Part shown: positions 14,290-21,221 of the stretch, one piece after another
How the letters are laid out: the number at the start of each line of letters is the position of its first letter
Numbering within the stretch: the stretch's first letter is position 1
Source of the DNA: a virus
Virus record (IMG/VR): IMGVR_UViG_3300032083_000034
Coordinates: 1 to 31,930 of that record
Direction: 5' to 3' (one strand)
DNA: 31,930 nt
The notes under the pieces: generated by a model
The model's input: the letters and a program-made list of their open reading frames with translations, nothing else
Told to the model about the DNA's origin: nothing
Database searches by the model: none
Position numbers and translations under genes: made by a program

Positions 14290-15135
14290 CTACTGGATTG
14301 ATGAGTCAAAGTGCATTTCTACACCATATGAATCATGTAATTCTCCAACACCATAAACTGCAGTAGCAACAATCTCGTCTGCTCTTAGAGAAGCATCTCT
14401 TTGAGTTTCAATCTTGATGTCCTGCATCATAGCTAGTGCTAAAGCATCCTTATGGAATACTGCACCTTTGTAATCACCTGCTGTACCTGTGTTAGCCATA
14501 TTTGAAGTTTCAAATACTGTAATACCTGCAATCTGACCTACATAACCTGAGCGTAGTGCTTCGTTCTGTAAATCACCTGCATTTGGATTAGCAAATGTGT
14601 TTGTTAAGTTTGCTTTTAAGTCATAAGCAATCTTTGGGTGTAATACTGCATAACACTCATTTGTTGGCAGTCCTGCCGCTCTTAGAGTTGATGCCGCATT
14701 GAAGATAGAAGAAGCCGCAATCGCTCCAGTTCCGTCACCTAATGTAGTTGAGAAACCATCAAATAATGCGATTAAGTCTTCGTCCATTTTCTTTGCAATA
14801 CCTTCACCGAATAATCTACCGATATCAGCCGCTACGTTTCTTGGTGCGGAGTTTCTCGCTAAATCAGTTAGTGTTGTCATTACGCCAACCTCAGATGCAG
14901 TGATTGTCACTGAACTTGGGTTTACTGCTGTGTTTGATAAATCGGTTGCTTCTGCTACACCTGCCGCCGCGATAGCTGAGTAAATCGGTACTTCTACGGA
15001 TTTACCACCACCTGCGATAGTGTAGTTTTTTACCAAGTTCTTCATTATAGATTGCTCTTGAATTACGAACTCAGCTTCAGCAACGATTTCTGTGTACAAT
15101 TCACTAAGAGTTGTACTTGTGCTTTCGTTTGCCAT
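14290..15135 (-). CDS. Major capsid protein (HK97-fold)
   Basis: The 281-aa product starts ANESTSTTLSELYTEIVAEAEF, followed by a helix and an E-loop-like part (VPIYSAIAAAGVAEATDLSNT). Then come NSAPRNVAADIGRLFGEGIAKKMDEDLIALFDGF (spine helix region), NECYAVLHPKIAYDLKANL (P-domain strand-helix) and AVYGVGELHDSYGVEMHFDSS at the end. Gene order scaffold-capsid-connector supports the call. Codon use is notably richer in G/C at several third positions than its neighbours, as expected for a highly expressed gene. There is no N-terminal protease-processed delta domain; a separate scaffold lies upstream. Confidence 0.92.
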   Translation of the reverse strand: MANESTSTTLSELYTEIVAEAEFVIQEQSIMKNLVKNYTIAGGGKSVEVPIYSAIAAAGVAEATDLSNTAVNPSSVTITASEVGVMTTLTDLARNSAPRNVAADIGRLFGEGIAKKMDEDLIALFDGFSTTLGDGTGAIAASSIFNAASTLRAAGLPTNECYAVLHPKIAYDLKANLTNTFANPNAGDLQNEALRSGYVGQIAGITVFETSNMANTGTAGDYKGAVFHKDALALAMMQDIKIETQRDASLRADEIVATAVYGVGELHDSYGVEMHFDSSIQ

Positions 15136-15152: not shown

Positions 15153-15863
15153 TTATTTTTTTAAGTTAATATGAGTGACACTGTCTCTAGTTTTACGATA
15201 CTCTGCGTATGCTTTTCTATCAGCAGGATTACTCATGTCTAAGTCCGAAATGTTTAAAGTCTTATTCGTATTTGACTGACCCACATTACTTACACTTCCG
15301 CTCCCAGAGGGAGTTGCCGACTGAAAGTGTGCGTTCTGCGTTAAAAACTCTTGTACAGCTTCATCAACTGTCAATAAGTCACCATCCTTGTTATATCTTG
15401 GTGTTCCTGAATTATCAACAACTTCTACTTTGCCATCTTTATTAAGATGAACGCTATTCTTTAGTAGAGATTTGATTTGTTCTGGATTGATGGCTTTATG
15501 CTTTGAAGCGGCATTGATTAATTGCTTATCAACTCTTTCATCTCTGAGTTCTGCTTCTAGCTTATTAAGTTTATCATTATATTCTTGAGTTTTCTTTTTG
15601 ATAACTTCATCAAACTTACCTCGTTCAAGTTGTTTTTCTTCTTCAGCTTTTCTTCTTTCTTCTATAGCCGCTTTTACGTCATCTAATGAGCCTACTCCTA
15701 GTTCATTTAAGATTTTTTGTTCTTGACGATAAAGTCTGTCTTTGACTACTTTATCAATATCAACTTGATTTGGTTTTGGTTGTTCTACTGGTTGTTCTTG
15801 TTTTACTTCTACATTTTCTGTTGTTGTTGCTTCCACCTGTTCCGTTTTATTCTCGTCAGACAT
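15153..15863 (-). CDS. Capsid scaffolding protein
   Basis: The 236-aa product has a charged, low-complexity Glu/Lys/Gln/Val N-terminus (TEQVEATTTENVEVKQEQPVEQ), a long coiled coil with runs such as EERRKAEEEKQLERGKFDEVIKK and EYNDKLNKLEAELRDERV, and a C-terminal part with SATPSGSGSVSNVGQS and a basic end (KAYAEYRKTRDSVTHINLKK). This layout is typical for phage scaffolds, whose basic C-terminus binds the capsid protein. The gene lies 17 nt ahead of the capsid gene. Confidence 0.88.
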   Translation of the reverse strand: MSDENKTEQVEATTTENVEVKQEQPVEQPKPNQVDIDKVVKDRLYRQEQKILNELGVGSLDDVKAAIEERRKAEEEKQLERGKFDEVIKKKTQEYNDKLNKLEAELRDERVDKQLINAASKHKAINPEQIKSLLKNSVHLNKDGKVEVVDNSGTPRYNKDGDLLTVDEAVQEFLTQNAHFQSATPSGSGSVSNVGQSNTNKTLNISDLDMSNPADRKAYAEYRKTRDSVTHINLKK

Positions 15864-15913: not shown

Positions 15914-16843
15914 CTATTCTTCAATCAAATTTTCCCATTCAGGGTCGTATGGGATAAAGGAATGACGACATCTATAGCCACCTCTATTGATAAATGGGTC
16001 TGTTCCTGACTTTCCTGCCCACCTAGTAGATGCCCAAGTATCTATGGCTTCTTGCTCTGTAAAGACTTTATTGAGATTGGCTCTACAAAAGGGTCTAGTA
16101 GTAATAATATTTGTGCCTGTGTATTTGTAAGATGTAATCCCTGCTTCATTAGCTTTGTACTTAGTAAATTGTCCGTCAAACTGCATTAAACTATCATGTG
16201 CCATTTGACTTGCGTATCTACGCATATTATCTCCATAAACATCAGCGGCATATTTAGATTGTAATGTTTCTTTAGCAGTAGTGACTTGTGCTTTGATACT
16301 AGGATTGTTGGAATATCTATTTTTATCTATGAAATCTACAAGGCGGTTTATTTCTGTTTCATCACTTCTTTGGTAAACACCATTAATCTTGGCTCTAATA
16401 TTTTTAACCATTTGATTAAAGTCTTTGCCTACAATAGCTGACTGATAAACTTCATTGGCTAATGTGTCTAGGTAGGTATTAGCAATATCCTCAAACCCAC
16501 TAAAAGATAAAAATTTTAATTGGTTAATAACTTCAAGATTAGGTTTTGTTAATGACTTAAATCTTGCAGGGATAGGTAGTGGCTTAATAAACTTTTGATA
16601 TTCTTTAATGACTTCATCATATTCACTGCGGATAATATCATCTACTTCTGATAAATAATTTTCTTCAATTAATCTTTTAAGGTTGGGTCTAAGTTGAATG
16701 GCTAGTTGGGTGGTTAGTTTTTCACCACCTGCGGTTGACTTAGTTAAGTCAGCAATAATATCATCTTCAAGTTTTTTAAGTACGCCAATAACTCTTTCTT
16801 CGTGAGTATCAATTAATTTGTTTAGTATTTCTTGTTTTGCCAT
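15914..16843 (-). CDS. Minor head protein, SPP1 gp7 / MuF-like
   Basis: The product has 309 aa, largely helical. The C-terminal part contains YKYTGTNIITTRPFCRANLNK and ends NRGGYRCRHSFIPYDPEW, a characteristic Cys/His pattern of the MuF/phage head-morphogenesis domain. The place between portal and scaffold is canonical. It likely binds the portal and enters the procapsid, and may be ejected with DNA. A 50-nt AT-rich gap separates it from the scaffold gene. There is no extra C-terminal toxin domain: the protein ends about 10 residues after the motif. Confidence 0.85.
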   Translation of the reverse strand: MAKQEILNKLIDTHEERVIGVLKKLEDDIIADLTKSTAGGEKLTTQLAIQLRPNLKRLIEENYLSEVDDIIRSEYDEVIKEYQKFIKPLPIPARFKSLTKPNLEVINQLKFLSFSGFEDIANTYLDTLANEVYQSAIVGKDFNQMVKNIRAKINGVYQRSDETEINRLVDFIDKNRYSNNPSIKAQVTTAKETLQSKYAADVYGDNMRRYASQMAHDSLMQFDGQFTKYKANEAGITSYKYTGTNIITTRPFCRANLNKVFTEQEAIDTWASTRWAGKSGTDPFINRGGYRCRHSFIPYDPEWENLIEE

Positions 16844-16846
16844 TCA

Positions 16847-17125
16847 TTAAACTTTAAAACCTTTTTTCCAAGATTGCACTGCCCAATAAGCAGGGGATAG
16901 GTTTTTCTGTCCTTTGACTTTGGCTAATATAGGTCTAAATCTAGCCATAAAACTTCTTTGTCTAGCAGGGATATTTTTCTTTATAGAAAGATTAGGGTCG
17001 CCAAATCTGACTATTTTAACATTGCCAGTTGCTTTATTCTTCACATATACACCAAACTTCTTTGACTTGCTAGGTGTTCTAAATGGTTTATTCAGCTTAA
17101 CTTGACGACCTTTATAAGTAGCCAT
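16847..17125 (-). CDS. Small basic protein, DUF6321-like, without its usual cysteines, 92 aa
   Basis: The sequence contains VKLNKPFRTPSKSKKFGVYVK and VKIVRFGDPNLSIKKN. I recognise both as the signature of a small domain frequent in phage head modules, often fused to prohead proteases. In the forms I recall, the second half carries a histidine/cysteine cluster before a YW motif. Here that part reads FMARFRPILAKVKGQ...SPAYWAVQSW with no cysteine. It is strongly basic, starts by TAATG coupling to the 32-aa gene and ends 3 nt before the MuF-like ATG. The function is unknown. Confidence 0.75.
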   Translation of the reverse strand: MATYKGRQVKLNKPFRTPSKSKKFGVYVKNKATGNVKIVRFGDPNLSIKKNIPARQRSFMARFRPILAKVKGQKNLSPAYWAVQSWKKGFKV

Positions 17126-17223
17126 TATTTCTTTTTCTTTCTTTTGTGTGCTGAGTTTTTCATCAATCTACCATCTGGCATATAATGAAATCCTCTAGGT
17201 GCTTTTTTACGTCTTTTAGCCAC
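17125..17223 (-). CDS. Very small basic protein, 32 aa, GTG start
   Basis: The frame reads VAKRRKKAPRGFHYMPDGRL, then MKNSAH and a basic KRKKKK end. The phrase GFHYMPDGRLMKNS matches a widespread short marine-phage protein that I recall without function. The GTG start overlaps the upstream stop as TAGTG, and its own stop overlaps the next ATG as TAATG. Charge suggests nucleic-acid or capsid-interior contact. Confidence rests on the recognised motif and tight coupling. Confidence 0.75.
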   Translation of the reverse strand: MAKRRKKAPRGFHYMPDGRLMKNSAHKRKKKK

Positions 17224-17300
17224 TATTTTTTTTTCTTCTTTCTTTTCTTCATCTTCATAGAAGATTTAACTGATTTTGTTTTTCCGTAGTGTTTTGGCAT
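17223..17300 (-). CDS. Micro-gene for a lysine-rich 25-aa peptide
   Basis: This frame begins MPKHYGKTKSVKSSMKMKK and ends in a lysine run. AAGGA lies 8-9 nt upstream of the ATG, and the TAG stop overlaps the GTG of the next gene. The MPKHYGK start is shared with other tiny phage peptides I recall. It overlaps the -1 extension (17255-17464) by 46 nt in another frame, so at least part of this segment is coded twice if both are real. Confidence 0.6.
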   Translation of the reverse strand: MPKHYGKTKSVKSSMKMKKRKKKKK

Positions 17301-17697
17301 TGGTTTATCCTTTCTTCGTAATGTTTAAAACATAATAGTTCTAACATACCAAATCTGTAATTAAAACCTATACATGCAAACTTACCACAAAAGCATTTCT
17401 TTTGACCATGTTGTTGATGTGTCCAGTTGTATAAATCATTAACTGAAACAGTCTTGCCTTTTACTTTTTCTTTTTGCGTAAGTCTAAGTCGTGTTTCCGA
17501 CTACCTCTTAGAAATGAATTAACTCTACCCATAGACCATGCCGCCATAGGAACTCTACGACTACCTGCGGATAAGAAAGCACCCTGTCCTCTACGATACA
17601 CTTTTGCTAATGTTGTATAAGTATATTTCTTAGATGCCTTTGCTTTTCTTTGTAAGGTTGCTTTTACAGTAGCGGATAATGGTTTAGCTTTTACCAT
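17255..17697 (-). CDS. Possible -1 frameshift product: DUF5824-like domain plus cysteine-rich extension, 147 aa
   Basis: The 78-aa gene ends CGC AAA AAG AAA AAG TAA. In the -1 frame, 69 further codons are open to TGA at 17255-17257. They encode convincing protein: SVNDLYNWTHQQHGQKKCFC, GKFACIGFNYRFGMLELLCF and KHYEERINQC. Five cysteines and several histidines suggest a metal site. No ATG, GTG or TTG precedes the cysteine region in that frame, so it must be reached by slippage at one of the AAA AAG pairs (17464-17476), by an unusual start, or the sequence has an indel. Length fits a -1 shift (443 nt plus 1 equals 148 codons). The extension looks genuine. How it is translated is the open point. 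Confidence 0.55.
17461..17697 (-). CDS. Small basic head-module protein, DUF5824-like, 78 aa
   Basis: The sequence includes KAKASKKYTYTTLAKVYRRG, QGAFLSAGSRRVPMAAWSMG and RVNSFLRGSRKHDLDLRKKKK. The YRRGQGAFLSAGSR...W..GRVNSF pattern is a recognisable short domain (DUF5824-like) found repeatedly in marine phages. Its role is unknown. The ATG overlaps the upstream stop (TAATG). The end is an alternating AAA AAG tract directly before the stop, see the frameshift entry. Strong positive charge is shared with the neighbouring small genes. Confidence 0.8.
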   Translation of the reverse strand: MVKAKPLSATVKATLQRKAKASKKYTYTTLAKVYRRGQGAFLSAGSRRVPMAAWSMGRVNSFLRGSRKHDLDLRKKKK

Positions 17698-17870
17698 TAG
17701 GCTTTAGTTCTTGATTTTAGTAATGACATAGGGATGCGTTTACCTGCTTTATATAATGCTGATACTTTTTTGATTAATGATGCTCGTCTTGTTCTCTTAG
17801 CACCTTTTAAACCTGATAAATATTTTTTAGGTACTTTAGTTTTTTTATCTTTAGGAACTCGTCTAGCCAT
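17697..17870 (-). CDS. Small basic protein, 57 aa
   Basis: The sequence includes VPKDKKTKVPKKYLSGLKGA and KRTRRASLIKKVSALYKAGK. The VPKKYLSGLKG...SRA-type motif followed by a Y.AGK..P helix is a recurring small phage domain I have seen beside DUF5824-like proteins. No function is known to me. It is coupled by TAATG to the virion protein upstream and to the 78-aa gene downstream. It is highly basic and lacks cysteine or aromatic clusters. Confidence 0.8.
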   Translation of the reverse strand: MARRVPKDKKTKVPKKYLSGLKGAKRTRRASLIKKVSALYKAGKRIPMSLLKSRTKA

Positions 17871-18583
17871 TAAGATTGGTCAATCTTTTCCAAGATTAAT
17901 TCAAATCCACCACTGACTGCTGATGTGGCACTAGATTTAGCAATTAACTCAATATCTGTCTTTTCAGTAATGACAATAGGAACTACATAATTTTTTTCTA
18001 TAAAACCACCTCTTGTAGTAATGAATGATTTTGTACTCCAAACATTACCATTAGATATATCTTTAGTAATAAATCTAATTTCGTTTTCTAAATCTTTTGA
18101 ACTACCTACATCTAATTGCAATAAATAAGCATTGTATTTTCTTGGCACTGTATAAACGCACATTAAAGTTTGTCCATAAGTAGGTCTAATCTGTGCTACT
18201 GTTGTTGATGATACTGTAATTGATATTGTACCTACATTCGCATTTCCTGTATTGGCAGTTGTCATTATTGCTCTAAATACTCTAATAAAGTTAGTTGAAC
18301 CTGCACTTCCACCTATCGTTAATGTTTCAGTAGCTAAATCATAATTACTATCTAATCCCTGTATCTCTACAGTTCCAGTATTATCATCTGTACTAGAACT
18401 TGTAGCAGTTGCAGTACCTGCACTTGATGGATAACTGTATGTATTGTTTCCATCCCAAATTGTTTCAAAGGATGTACCTACTGCGGTATTTAAACCAAAT
18501 TTAGAAATTCCTAAAAAATTTTGAACTAATCCTTTTTGTACGGATAATCCTAAAGGAAAATTATACAAATTACTTAATGCCAT
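17870..18583 (-). CDS. Beta-rich virion-type protein, 237 aa
   Basis: The product is rich in Thr, Ser, Gly and Asn and shows long alternating strands: FGLNTAVGTSFETIWDGNNTY, GTVEIQGLDSNYDLATETLTI, GNANVGTISITVSSTTVAQI, QTLMCVYTVPRKYNAYLLQL and GGFELILEK. The IWDG...Y, VQGLD and YTVP..YNAYLL motifs occur in a family common in marine podo- and siphoviruses that I recall as structural but not functionally defined. It lies just after the portal with a TAATG link. A capsid decoration or internal virion protein is possible. Confidence 0.7.
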   Translation of the reverse strand: MALSNLYNFPLGLSVQKGLVQNFLGISKFGLNTAVGTSFETIWDGNNTYSYPSSAGTATATSSSTDDNTGTVEIQGLDSNYDLATETLTIGGSAGSTNFIRVFRAIMTTANTGNANVGTISITVSSTTVAQIRPTYGQTLMCVYTVPRKYNAYLLQLDVGSSKDLENEIRFITKDISNGNVWSTKSFITTRGGFIEKNYVVPIVITEKTDIELIAKSSATSAVSGGFELILEKIDQS

Positions 18584-20001
18584 TATTCTTCTATTTCTTC
18601 TCCTTCTATGGTTGGCGTACTAAATTGTCCAATATTGACAGCTTTTGCATCTATTTCATTATCAATAGTATTAATCTTTTCATCATCATCTACGACTGCT
18701 CTTGCAATCTGTTTATCTACTTCTTTAACAAAACTATCAGACTGAACGCCACTAGCTTTTGCCATTTGTAGGAATTGTAAGTCGGATGCGTAATCTCTAA
18801 GATTGAAACTATCAGGATAAATTATTTCACCATCAAATTCTCTGCCTTGCCATTCAGCGAATAAATTCCAAATTTGTTCTTCTGCGTTTTGTAAATAGTC
18901 AGCCTTCTCAGATAATCTAGCGTTTAATAATTGAAATTCTGTTTGTAAGGCTATACCTGACTGTACTCTATCCTGAGTGGCTCTTACTGCACCCATATGT
19001 GTAATTCTATTAATAGATTCTACCTTCATATTGATGTTATTCATTATGCCATCTAATGACTGTGAACTAGGTTGGATAAGATAGGGTTTTAAGTTGGGTT
19101 CTAAATCTTCAGGCATTTCAATAATAGAACCTGCACCTGCACTAGCCTCTACATTAGGTGTCTTAACTAAACTTGGGTGATTTGATAATCTGATTAATTG
19201 TTCAATCTCAGAATAATCATTATAGATAGCTTTTTGTAATTCAGCTACATCATTTAAATCAGATATGCCAATACCTCTACGCTGAGATTTTTGATTATAT
19301 AAAACAACAGCAGGAATCTTTCCTAACATATTTGGCATTTCATCAACCATTATTGGTTTAGATGTGGAATAGCCTTTATTAAATTCTGCAACTCTGTAAG
19401 TAGTAATATCTTCCATAGTCCAAACTCTAATAGTTGCCATGTCATCAAATAAATCTTCTAGTAGTGTTAATGATGTTAAAATGTATTTACCATTTAAACT
19501 GCGTTCAAAATTCCAGTTTAAGACGTTCTCAGGTGTATAAAGACTCATGTATGGTCTAATGTCTAATTGTAATTCTTCTGCTCTAGTTTGTGTTTGTACC
19601 GCAGGTTTATCTAACATTGCCCAACAAGTACCATAGATAGATGCGTTTACTTGCATCTCTCTGATGACATTGTTGAATGACCTTCCATCTAAATCAGCGT
19701 CATTAAGGAATGAATTTAATTGTTCATCACCATTCATAGAACCATAATTTCTTGTAGGTGGTACTCGGAATAAGAAAGACGAATAGATTTGTACCACATT
19801 CTTACAATGATTATCTATGGGAGTATTTTCTGCTCGTTTTAAATATTCTTCATCTGTTTCTAAAATATATCGGTTAAGTTGATAACCATTTTGGTAATCT
19901 TGTCCACCCAAGTATGACATCAAATGAAAATGCCAATCGGCAAACTTTTCTTCATAATGTTTGTGTTTTTGGGTTAAAAATTCTCTACTGTATAATGCCA
20001 T
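18583..20001 (-). CDS. Portal protein
   Basis: The 472-aa product opens MALYSREFLTQKHKHYEEKF; the best ATG is at 20001, which overlaps the TerL stop as TAATG and has GGTGGAG just upstream. An ATG three codons earlier exists but is less well placed. Features include NHCKNVVQIYSSFLFRVPPT, DGRSFNNVIREMQVNASIYG, GKIPAVVLYNQKSQRRGIG, AIYNDYSEIEQLIRLSNHPSL and TQDRVQSGIALQTEFQLLNA, all usual in DUF4055-type/large portal families. A C-terminal helical, acidic tail ends EGEEIEE. It forms the dodecameric DNA gate. Confidence 0.9.
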   Translation of the reverse strand: MALYSREFLTQKHKHYEEKFADWHFHLMSYLGGQDYQNGYQLNRYILETDEEYLKRAENTPIDNHCKNVVQIYSSFLFRVPPTRNYGSMNGDEQLNSFLNDADLDGRSFNNVIREMQVNASIYGTCWAMLDKPAVQTQTRAEELQLDIRPYMSLYTPENVLNWNFERSLNGKYILTSLTLLEDLFDDMATIRVWTMEDITTYRVAEFNKGYSTSKPIMVDEMPNMLGKIPAVVLYNQKSQRRGIGISDLNDVAELQKAIYNDYSEIEQLIRLSNHPSLVKTPNVEASAGAGSIIEMPEDLEPNLKPYLIQPSSQSLDGIMNNINMKVESINRITHMGAVRATQDRVQSGIALQTEFQLLNARLSEKADYLQNAEEQIWNLFAEWQGREFDGEIIYPDSFNLRDYASDLQFLQMAKASGVQSDSFVKEVDKQIARAVVDDDEKINTIDNEIDAKAVNIGQFSTPTIEGEEIEE

Positions 20002-21221
20002 TAACTCCACCTCTTGGGTTTACTTGGTGTAAACTGTCTTTTGACAGGGTATAAATATTCCACTAAATATCCTAATGCATCATTCATATGGTCGTAATTG
20101 TTGTCCTTGTCAGGCACAGTTGTTCCTTCTTTATAAATTTGTCTTTCAATGCTTTTTAGCATAGTTTTGCATTTATTTGCAATAAATAATGTTCTGTCAC
20201 CAACTCCGTTCTTCAATTTAGTATTCACTGCATTTATTCTATCTCTAATGAGTGGATGATTATTTCTTACTCTGATATTAAATCCTGCATTTTTTAATAT
20301 AGCTAAATCTGTGACACCACCTGCTGATGTTTTTCTTTGCTTTGACGCAGGGTCAGGATAAATAAATATATGCTTATCCTTAAATCTATTTTTGATTTCT
20401 TGTACCATTTCGTCAGTATTAGAACTATAGATAACAATCTCTTCATAGAGATAAACATTATTGCCTTTTAACTCACATATCACAGCACTCATTGGGTCTA
20501 TATTGAAGTCCATGCCAATATGTATTTCATCAGTTTCAGGAATATAATTATCTATAACATTCTCTTTTCTATCAAAGTTATAATATATTTGACCTGCATA
20601 ATTCACAAATGAACCCATATACTCTTGTTGAAATGTTCTTTCGTCTAGGTCTTGTTTAGCTTGTTCTATTTCTTGTGGTGATACCCTGCCACCATCTAAG
20701 GTAGTAAATTGAAATGATGCCCAGTTATTTGGGTCTTCATCAGCTTTAGTAAATAGGTTATAACTCCAGTTTCCATATCCTCTAGGTGTGCCACAGAATA
20801 AAGCTGAACCATTCCTATCAGATAAAGTTGGTCTTAAAATTTCATACCAAGTATTCTCTCTAATATCTGCGAACTCATCCATAATTAAAAAATCTAATCC
20901 TACACCTCTAAGGCTATTTTCATTATCTGCACCCCTTAATGATATAGTTGAGCCATTTCTTAATGTAATAGTCAAGTCAGAGTTATTAACGGATTTAATC
21001 CATTTATGTGCGGTTAGCTTTTCTATTAAGTCAGTCCAAACAATCGTCTTAGCCATTCTATAAGTTGGTGCTACATACCAAACCTTACGTTTAGGATATC
21101 GGCTAAACTTAGCTATCTCAGTGACGGATAAAAAAGTTTTTCCCCACCGCCTCCCTGCGATAATGCACCGAAATCTTTTATCACATTCAAGAACTTGTTT
21201 TTGAGGTTTACTTAGTGGCAA
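20001..21221 (-). CDS. terL: Terminase large subunit
   Basis: The 406-aa protein has an N-terminal packaging ATPase and a C-terminal nuclease. Walker A is AGRRWGKT (residues 22-29). The adenine/arginine region VWYVAPTYRMAK follows. Walker B is LIMDE (112-116) and the coupling motif is CGTPRG. The nuclease domain shows HIGMDFNIDP (first acidic residue) and IYPDPASKQRKT, then the C-terminal NNYDHMNDALGY with conserved Asp/His/Asn. It overlaps the XF1762-like gene by 14 nt and is followed by the portal gene. Cohesive-end versus headful packaging cannot be decided from sequence alone; the circular assembly fits headful or terminal redundancy. Confidence 0.97.
   Translation of the reverse strand: MPLSKPQKQVLECDKRFRCIIAGRRWGKTFLSVTEIAKFSRYPKRKVWYVAPTYRMAKTIVWTDLIEKLTAHKWIKSVNNSDLTITLRNGSTISLRGADNENSLRGVGLDFLIMDEFADIRENTWYEILRPTLSDRNGSALFCGTPRGYGNWSYNLFTKADEDPNNWASFQFTTLDGGRVSPQEIEQAKQDLDERTFQQEYMGSFVNYAGQIYYNFDRKENVIDNYIPETDEIHIGMDFNIDPMSAVICELKGNNVYLYEEIVIYSSNTDEMVQEIKNRFKDKHIFIYPDPASKQRKTSAGGVTDLAILKNAGFNIRVRNNHPLIRDRINAVNTKLKNGVGDRTLFIANKCKTMLKSIERQIYKEGTTVPDKDNNYDHMNDALGYLVEYLYPVKRQFTPSKPKRWS

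Follow-up and report, generated by a model that had tools for sequence, protein, structure and literature searches.

A mobile cassette of small basic genes in the head module of a pelagiphage probably encodes head-internal proteins related to DUF5824 and PHROG 7595

The internal proteins of bacteriophage T4 are among the closest described counterparts of the genes considered here. They carry leaders of 10–19 residues that direct them into the head before being cleaved off, T4 gp21 cleaves after L/I-x-E, and the proteins are kept in the head, although they are not conserved across phages (PMC9026906). Their lysines touch DNA phosphates (PMC3012670). T4 gp23 has a 65-residue propeptide ending at FLTEAE (PMC9958956), a motif located at residues 61–66 in the T4 record. 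A second related system is ORF125 of Vibrio phage ICP1, which has been described as a predicted procapsid protease (PMC7567579, PMC9040626). A third is the Tlr6f/DUF5754 domain, reported in 2015 from nearly all polinton-like viruses, virophages, many giant viruses (Megavirales) and some phages, with neither a known function nor a known structure (PMC4642659).

The DNA analysed here, called the window throughout, is a virus record of 31,930 bases with a GC content of 32.9%. Its portal–terminase and capsid genes share ~69% DNA identity with those of the Pelagibacter phages HTVC112P, HTVC111P, HTVC202P and HTVC026P, and the window phage is an HTVC010P-like pelagiphage of the SAR11 type; pelagiphages are among the most abundant viruses of the ocean. 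On the minus strand the genes follow the order TerL, portal, p237, p57, p78, ext, p25, p32, p92, MuF, scaffold and major capsid protein. The flanking genes, all on this strand, encode an SPP1 gp6-like portal (18583–20010), a MuF-like minor head protein (15914–16843), a scaffolding protein (15153–15863) and a major capsid protein (14290–15135), the last identified by its match to the HTVC112P annotation.

The upstream neighbour of the block, p237 (17870–18583, minus strand), is not basic and matches gp176 of phage S-CREM2 with 39% identity over 229 residues. Because gp176 was detected in purified virions by mass spectrometry with 20 unique peptides (PMC10665884), the earlier proposal that the gene at 17870 encodes a virion protein is supported by homology. 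It evolves faster than the neighbouring genes (dN/dS 0.32), no counterpart was found in many relatives, and a search for solved-structure relatives returned weak SH3-type rows only. The p237 family is common to cyanomyoviruses and vibriophages, whereas close pelagiphages differ from one another: some have it, some have a divergent version and in some it was not found.

Between p237 and the MuF gene lie five small open reading frames on the minus strand: p57 (17697–17870; 57 aa, net charge +20), p78 (17461–17697; 78 aa, +20), p25 (17223–17300; 25 aa, +13), p32 (17125–17223; 32 aa, +13), an optional gene with a GTG start, and p92 (16847–17125; 92 aa, +23). With net charges per residue of +0.25 to +0.52, their products take the first five places in the genome for basicity; among its 43 other genes the median is −0.02 and no value exceeds +0.13. 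One-base TAATG stop/start overlaps connect p237 to p57, p57 to p78 and p32 to p92, while a one-base TAGTG overlap connects p25 to p32; a gap of 3 nt, without overlap, separates p92 from MuF. A preliminary sequence-only reading of this DNA had described five frames chained by such overlaps and had called all of the products highly basic. Sizes, place and overlaps were as described, but the chain is broken between the p78 stop and the p25 ATG, which are ~160 nt apart with ext in between. Likewise, the charge ranking bears out the basicity of the five frames but not that of ext (17255–17464, minus strand), a 69-aa extension from p78 in the −1 frame. With a net charge of +4, a pI of 8.9 and 13% K+R, and with a CxC...C plus CxxH arrangement of zinc-ribbon-like appearance, ext does not belong among the basic peptides.

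Median dN/dS values against relatives were 0.15 for p57, 0.08 for p78, 0.12 for ext, 0.19 for p25, 0.12 for p32 and 0.12 for p92, comparable to those of the portal (0.08) and MuF (0.15) genes. This indicates that selection acts at the protein level in every frame of the block, ext included; p78 is the best conserved of the block proteins.

How ext is expressed was considered from the sequences around the p78 stop. In the clade of the window, ATG, GTG and TTG are absent upstream of the conserved ext domain, and in relatives that lack p78 or carry a divergent p78 (L125, L126, L128, L142) ext is a free gene with its own ATG. An A-rich run of lysine codons, CGCAAAAAGAAAAAG (17464–17478, minus strand), precedes the p78 stop and is a candidate −1 slippery site. 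A-rich lysine runs are found in every member, some of them with a perfect A AAA AAG or A AAA AAA, and the candidates within the window are C AAA AAG and G AAA AAG. The likeliest route of ext expression would appear to be a −1 frameshift giving a p78–zinc-ribbon fusion. Because a search for a conserved stem downstream of the p78 stop gave no consensus stem (window z-score +0.56), non-canonical initiation is a possible alternative route. Known RNA families were searched for across the window and none was found. The two forms of ext may mark an evolutionary switch from a separate gene to a frameshift product. At 17255–17300 the last 46 nt of ext are read a second time, in another frame, as the beginning of p25.

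Profile comparison suggests that p57 and p78 each supply one half of a DUF5824 domain (PF19141) that is split over two genes, with p57 (PHROG 38321) aligning to the N-terminal and p78 (PHROG 28338) to the C-terminal half in the same order. Joined artificially, the window proteins score 24.7 bits over profile positions 1–108 of 127, against a cut-off of 25, and the joined pair from HTVC026P scores 33 bits, above the Pfam cut-off, with coverage of 1–108/109 of 127; a single chain from a T4-like phage reaches 87.8 bits over positions 1–125. For p57, all 49 of 49 non-redundant sequences scored above the 99th percentile of their own shuffles against the T4-like N-terminal profile, while other basic proteins scored near zero, and hhalign gave 65% for its placement as the N-terminal half compared with <2% for controls. 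The window form differs from DUF5824 in being strongly basic and in having its halves on two genes rather than in one chain; because these genes are joined by a TAATG overlap, we refer to the pair as a split form and not as a standard member of the family. A structural model of a T4-like DUF5824 was confident in the helical p78 half alone (pLDDT ~75–87), and it is uninformative on how the halves pack because the p57 half is modelled at a pLDDT of only ~45–56. Searches for solved-structure relatives of p57 and p78 found none, and a literature search on DUF5824, DUF6321 and lysine-rich pelagiphage proteins found no papers.

The remaining large member of the block, p92, is assigned to PHROG 7595 by a profile match of residues 3–86 to positions 9–96 of 96 (E 5.4e-18). 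Kinship with Tlr6f/DUF5754 is indirect and runs through family members: 11 of 55 match DUF5754 (PF19058; best E 8.2e-6), but the window protein itself scores 11.8 bits, far below the cut-off of 27.4, and thus appears to be a distant relative only. An AlphaFold2 model of p92 (mean pLDDT 88) shows a small beta-sheet and two helices. A fold search of the PDB with this model returned nothing at E ≤ 0.001 and no known DNA-binding fold. Rows for Cren7 recurred, at E 1.4–3.8, and rows for a kinase lobe at Z ≤ 3, and neither was used as evidence. In a separate search for solved-structure relatives, the p92 profile hit no more than ~21 residues of designed Pizza beta-propellers and of the pknD protein, and these hits were judged spurious. 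With Foldseek, the clear matches of p92 were uncharacterised phage proteins and the weak ones were proteins of Chrysochromulina ericina virus and Tunisvirus. Each of the two domain models also hit proteins annotated as XkdF and ChaB, and A0A516M8K9 is a single chain hit by both. A search for a solved structure or known function of p57, p78 or p92 found none.

To follow the arrangement of these genes across viruses, viral contigs were scanned with p78. This gave 387 relatives, and the best 80 were kept. All contigs used were picked for their resemblance to p78, ext, p237 or HTVC008M; the sample is therefore not random, and all frequencies are conditional on this choice. Among the best 80 of the 387, p78-selected as they are, p57 stands directly upstream of p78 in 79, and the order p57-p78-p92 is kept in all 74 contigs that carry the three genes. 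The sequence-only reading had seen in the block a conserved, undescribed functional unit, for which it proposed a synteny survey; such conservation applies to p57-p78-p92 but not to p25 and p32, which are replaced by other families in relatives.

The position of this cassette is variable. Two contexts were found, the portal/MuF interval as in the window and, in other phages, a site upstream of the terminase gene; as a mobile unit the cassette lies upstream of TerL in L004 and L012. In HTVC112P p92 is upstream of TerL, whereas HTVC041P and phage S30-C28 have it between scaffold and capsid genes and Kolga after the ribonucleotide reductase genes; the p57-p78 pair of HTVC026P is situated close to the right end. 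The cultured phages HTVC026P, HTVC111P and HTVC202P have all of p57, p78 and p92, but with p57-p78 far from p92. Roseophages and flavophages also carry relatives of p92, as do autographiviruses, where these genes are placed between those for scaffold and capsid. The idea that the unit is tied to the portal is therefore not upheld. A counterpart on an unrelated host is in Prochlorococcus phage MED4-184 (CPAG_00041–00044), where the same families occur in the same order adjoining scaffold and capsid genes, as p57-p78-p60-p92-scaffold-MCP. Here, the cassette follows MuF instead of preceding it as in the window, and an extra basic protein of 51 aa (PHROG 31838) replaces p25, p32 and ext.

Longer chains that include these modules are found in T4-like marine phages. 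At dozens of loci p57-p78 is the C-terminal part of a cytidyltransferase-like (NMNAT-like) protein, and in HTVC008M, which has a prohead protease gene, p92 lies in the gene next to such a cytidyltransferase-p57-p78 fusion. Among the fetched loci, p57-p78 occupied one ORF in 66 cases and p57-p78-p92 one chain in 10, including gene 18 of the isolate Melnitz-3. Of 29 non-redundant T4-like sequences, 24 have the motif L/I-x-E shortly ahead of the p78 domain (shuffled 6.5 ± 2.1, maximum 16 in 2000 runs), and of 24 such sequences, 16 have it shortly ahead of the p92 domain (shuffled 6.6 ± 2.1, maximum 14). L/I-x-E is a short motif and Glu is frequent in the linkers; because the sequences, thinned at 80% similarity, are still related and shuffling kept composition but not phylogeny, these figures serve as guides and not as probabilities. 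A typical predicted border reads LELTE followed by AEYQGKKVTLNKP, with the cut between them, and in the window the first residues of free p92 are MATYKGRQVKLNKP, so that this protein begins at the predicted cut. The T4-like relatives begin MKKFKQYIDE, MKKFSEIIEA, MITFKKYLEE or MSIKSFSDFLTE, resembling the MKTYQEFIAEA of T4 ipII/ipIII. A further fusion is found in ICP1 ORF125 (PHROG 9979; L337:4709–5545, minus strand), located in the head operon between portal and capsid genes, where an XkdF-type protease domain (39.5 bits, above the cut-off) is followed by a p92 domain (49 bits); by contrast, p92 of the window stands alone, with no protease domain attached. The p92 part of ORF125 is matched by PHROG 220, 'minor head protein and DNA pilot', as well.

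A cytidylyltransferase of S-CREM2 that was detected in virions, for which its authors allow for contamination (PMC10665884), was considered as a carrier of DUF5824 and ruled out, having neither DUF5824 nor DUF5754. It begins MKNFSSFLTEA (L252:13609–14469), close to a T4 capsid-targeting leader.

We consider it reasonably probable that p57, p78 and p92 are head-internal proteins produced from separate mini-genes and probably bound to the packaged DNA. Packing in the head with the DNA is probable because these are the separate-gene versions of domains that elsewhere are fused with predicted cut sites. A head location is suggested by the prohead-protease fusion, the border cut sites and the capsid-targeting-like N-termini of relatives, and charge alone suggests that the proteins might neutralise or organise the DNA. 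The cassette beside scaffold and MCP in MED4-184 also speaks for this reading. Binding to packaged DNA or to the scaffold, as suggested in the sequence-only reading, is compatible with these findings. Homologies, gene order, fusions and the distribution of cut-site motifs are shown by the sequences, and from them late timing, head entry, DNA binding and ejection are inferred; we propose that the three proteins would be made late, alongside the capsid genes, would enter the procapsid with the scaffold, would remain in the head on the packaged AT-rich DNA through Lys/Arg-rich surfaces and may exit with the DNA at infection. According to this model, p57 and p78 would jointly form one DUF5824 unit, and modules that T4-like marine phages make as one or two longer chains, with predicted prohead-protease cuts at the borders, would be produced 'pre-cut' as separate genes in the window phage. 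Like T4 IPI, IPII and IPIII these would be small head proteins, and the T4-like module homologues share with them the leader type and L/I-x-E; however, sequence homology to the T4 proteins is not shown, and p57, p78 and p92 of the window have neither a leader nor a prohead-protease site, a pattern seen in the T4-like homologues.

Several observations count against a head-internal role. No direct virion detection of p57, p78 or p92 was found, the genes sometimes lie outside the head module (p57-p78 in HTVC026P, p92 in Kolga), and the window proteins lack leader and cut site and gave no known DNA-binding fold; the brevity of L/I-x-E and the abundance of Glu in the linkers also weigh here. The pelagiphage transcriptome paper deals with other phage types and so provides no timing for the block genes.

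If the proteins acted solely in procapsid assembly, as basic partners of an acidic portal or scaffold that are gone before or during packaging, their genes would be expected where they are, adjoining portal, MuF, scaffold and MCP, and the portal does have a net charge of −31; the fusion of the ICP1 p92 domain to a prohead protease would also fit. However, the scaffold is only mildly acidic (−5), the predicted T4-like cuts would free the p78 and p92 domains intact and not degrade them, and T4 internal proteins, which are likewise cut, stay in the head (PMC9026906). We therefore regard a role confined to assembly as unlikely. Somewhat less likely again are late cytoplasmic proteins that bind nucleic acid or take over the host and use the head operon for expression timing only: their mobile position among phages and the cytidyltransferase/NMNAT-like fusion in T4-like phages would be accommodated, but capsid-targeting-like leaders, border cut sites and a prohead-protease fusion are unexpected for such proteins. 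That the frames are open merely by chance, as a 32.9% GC genome, A-rich lysine codons and the lysine runs that end p25 and p32 might suggest, is very improbable and already contradicted by selection (dN/dS 0.08–0.19, with Arg and other non-A-rich residues conserved) and by synteny (74 of 74 p78-selected contigs, and the presence of the genes in cyanophages, roseophages and flavophages as well).

For the head-internal reading of p57, p78 and p92 a wider setting can be tentatively proposed, which we hold to be possible though doubtful. DUF5824 and Tlr6f/DUF5754 might both belong to a single, ancient system inside the head that tailed phages have in common with polinton-like viruses and giant viruses, present in large phages as a procapsid polyprotein cut by the capsid protease and in small ones as pre-cut mini-genes. 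The evidence links the phage relatives of Tlr6f/DUF5754 to head morphogenesis, together with DUF5824, which occurs alongside them; a head role, if true, would explain the unannotated mini-gene block of pelagiphages.

The slot between p78 and p92 is variable, being occupied by other small basic families in relatives, and we take its occupants p25 and p32 to be basic peptides of an accessory kind. Its commonest family is of the MPYGKGTYGSKVGRPKK type with an AT-hook-like core, of which p25 is a divergent form. Further small basic families in the slot, seen in L001–L164, begin MALTKKQKKLPMALQKAI, MPLIKGYSAKSISKNIRTELKAGKPRKQAIAIAL and MPKKKSIWEKKRPKSLGK. Basic mini-proteins of PHROG 31838, not seen in the window block, accompany p57-p78 elsewhere (L004:1592–1774, L166:4662–4817).
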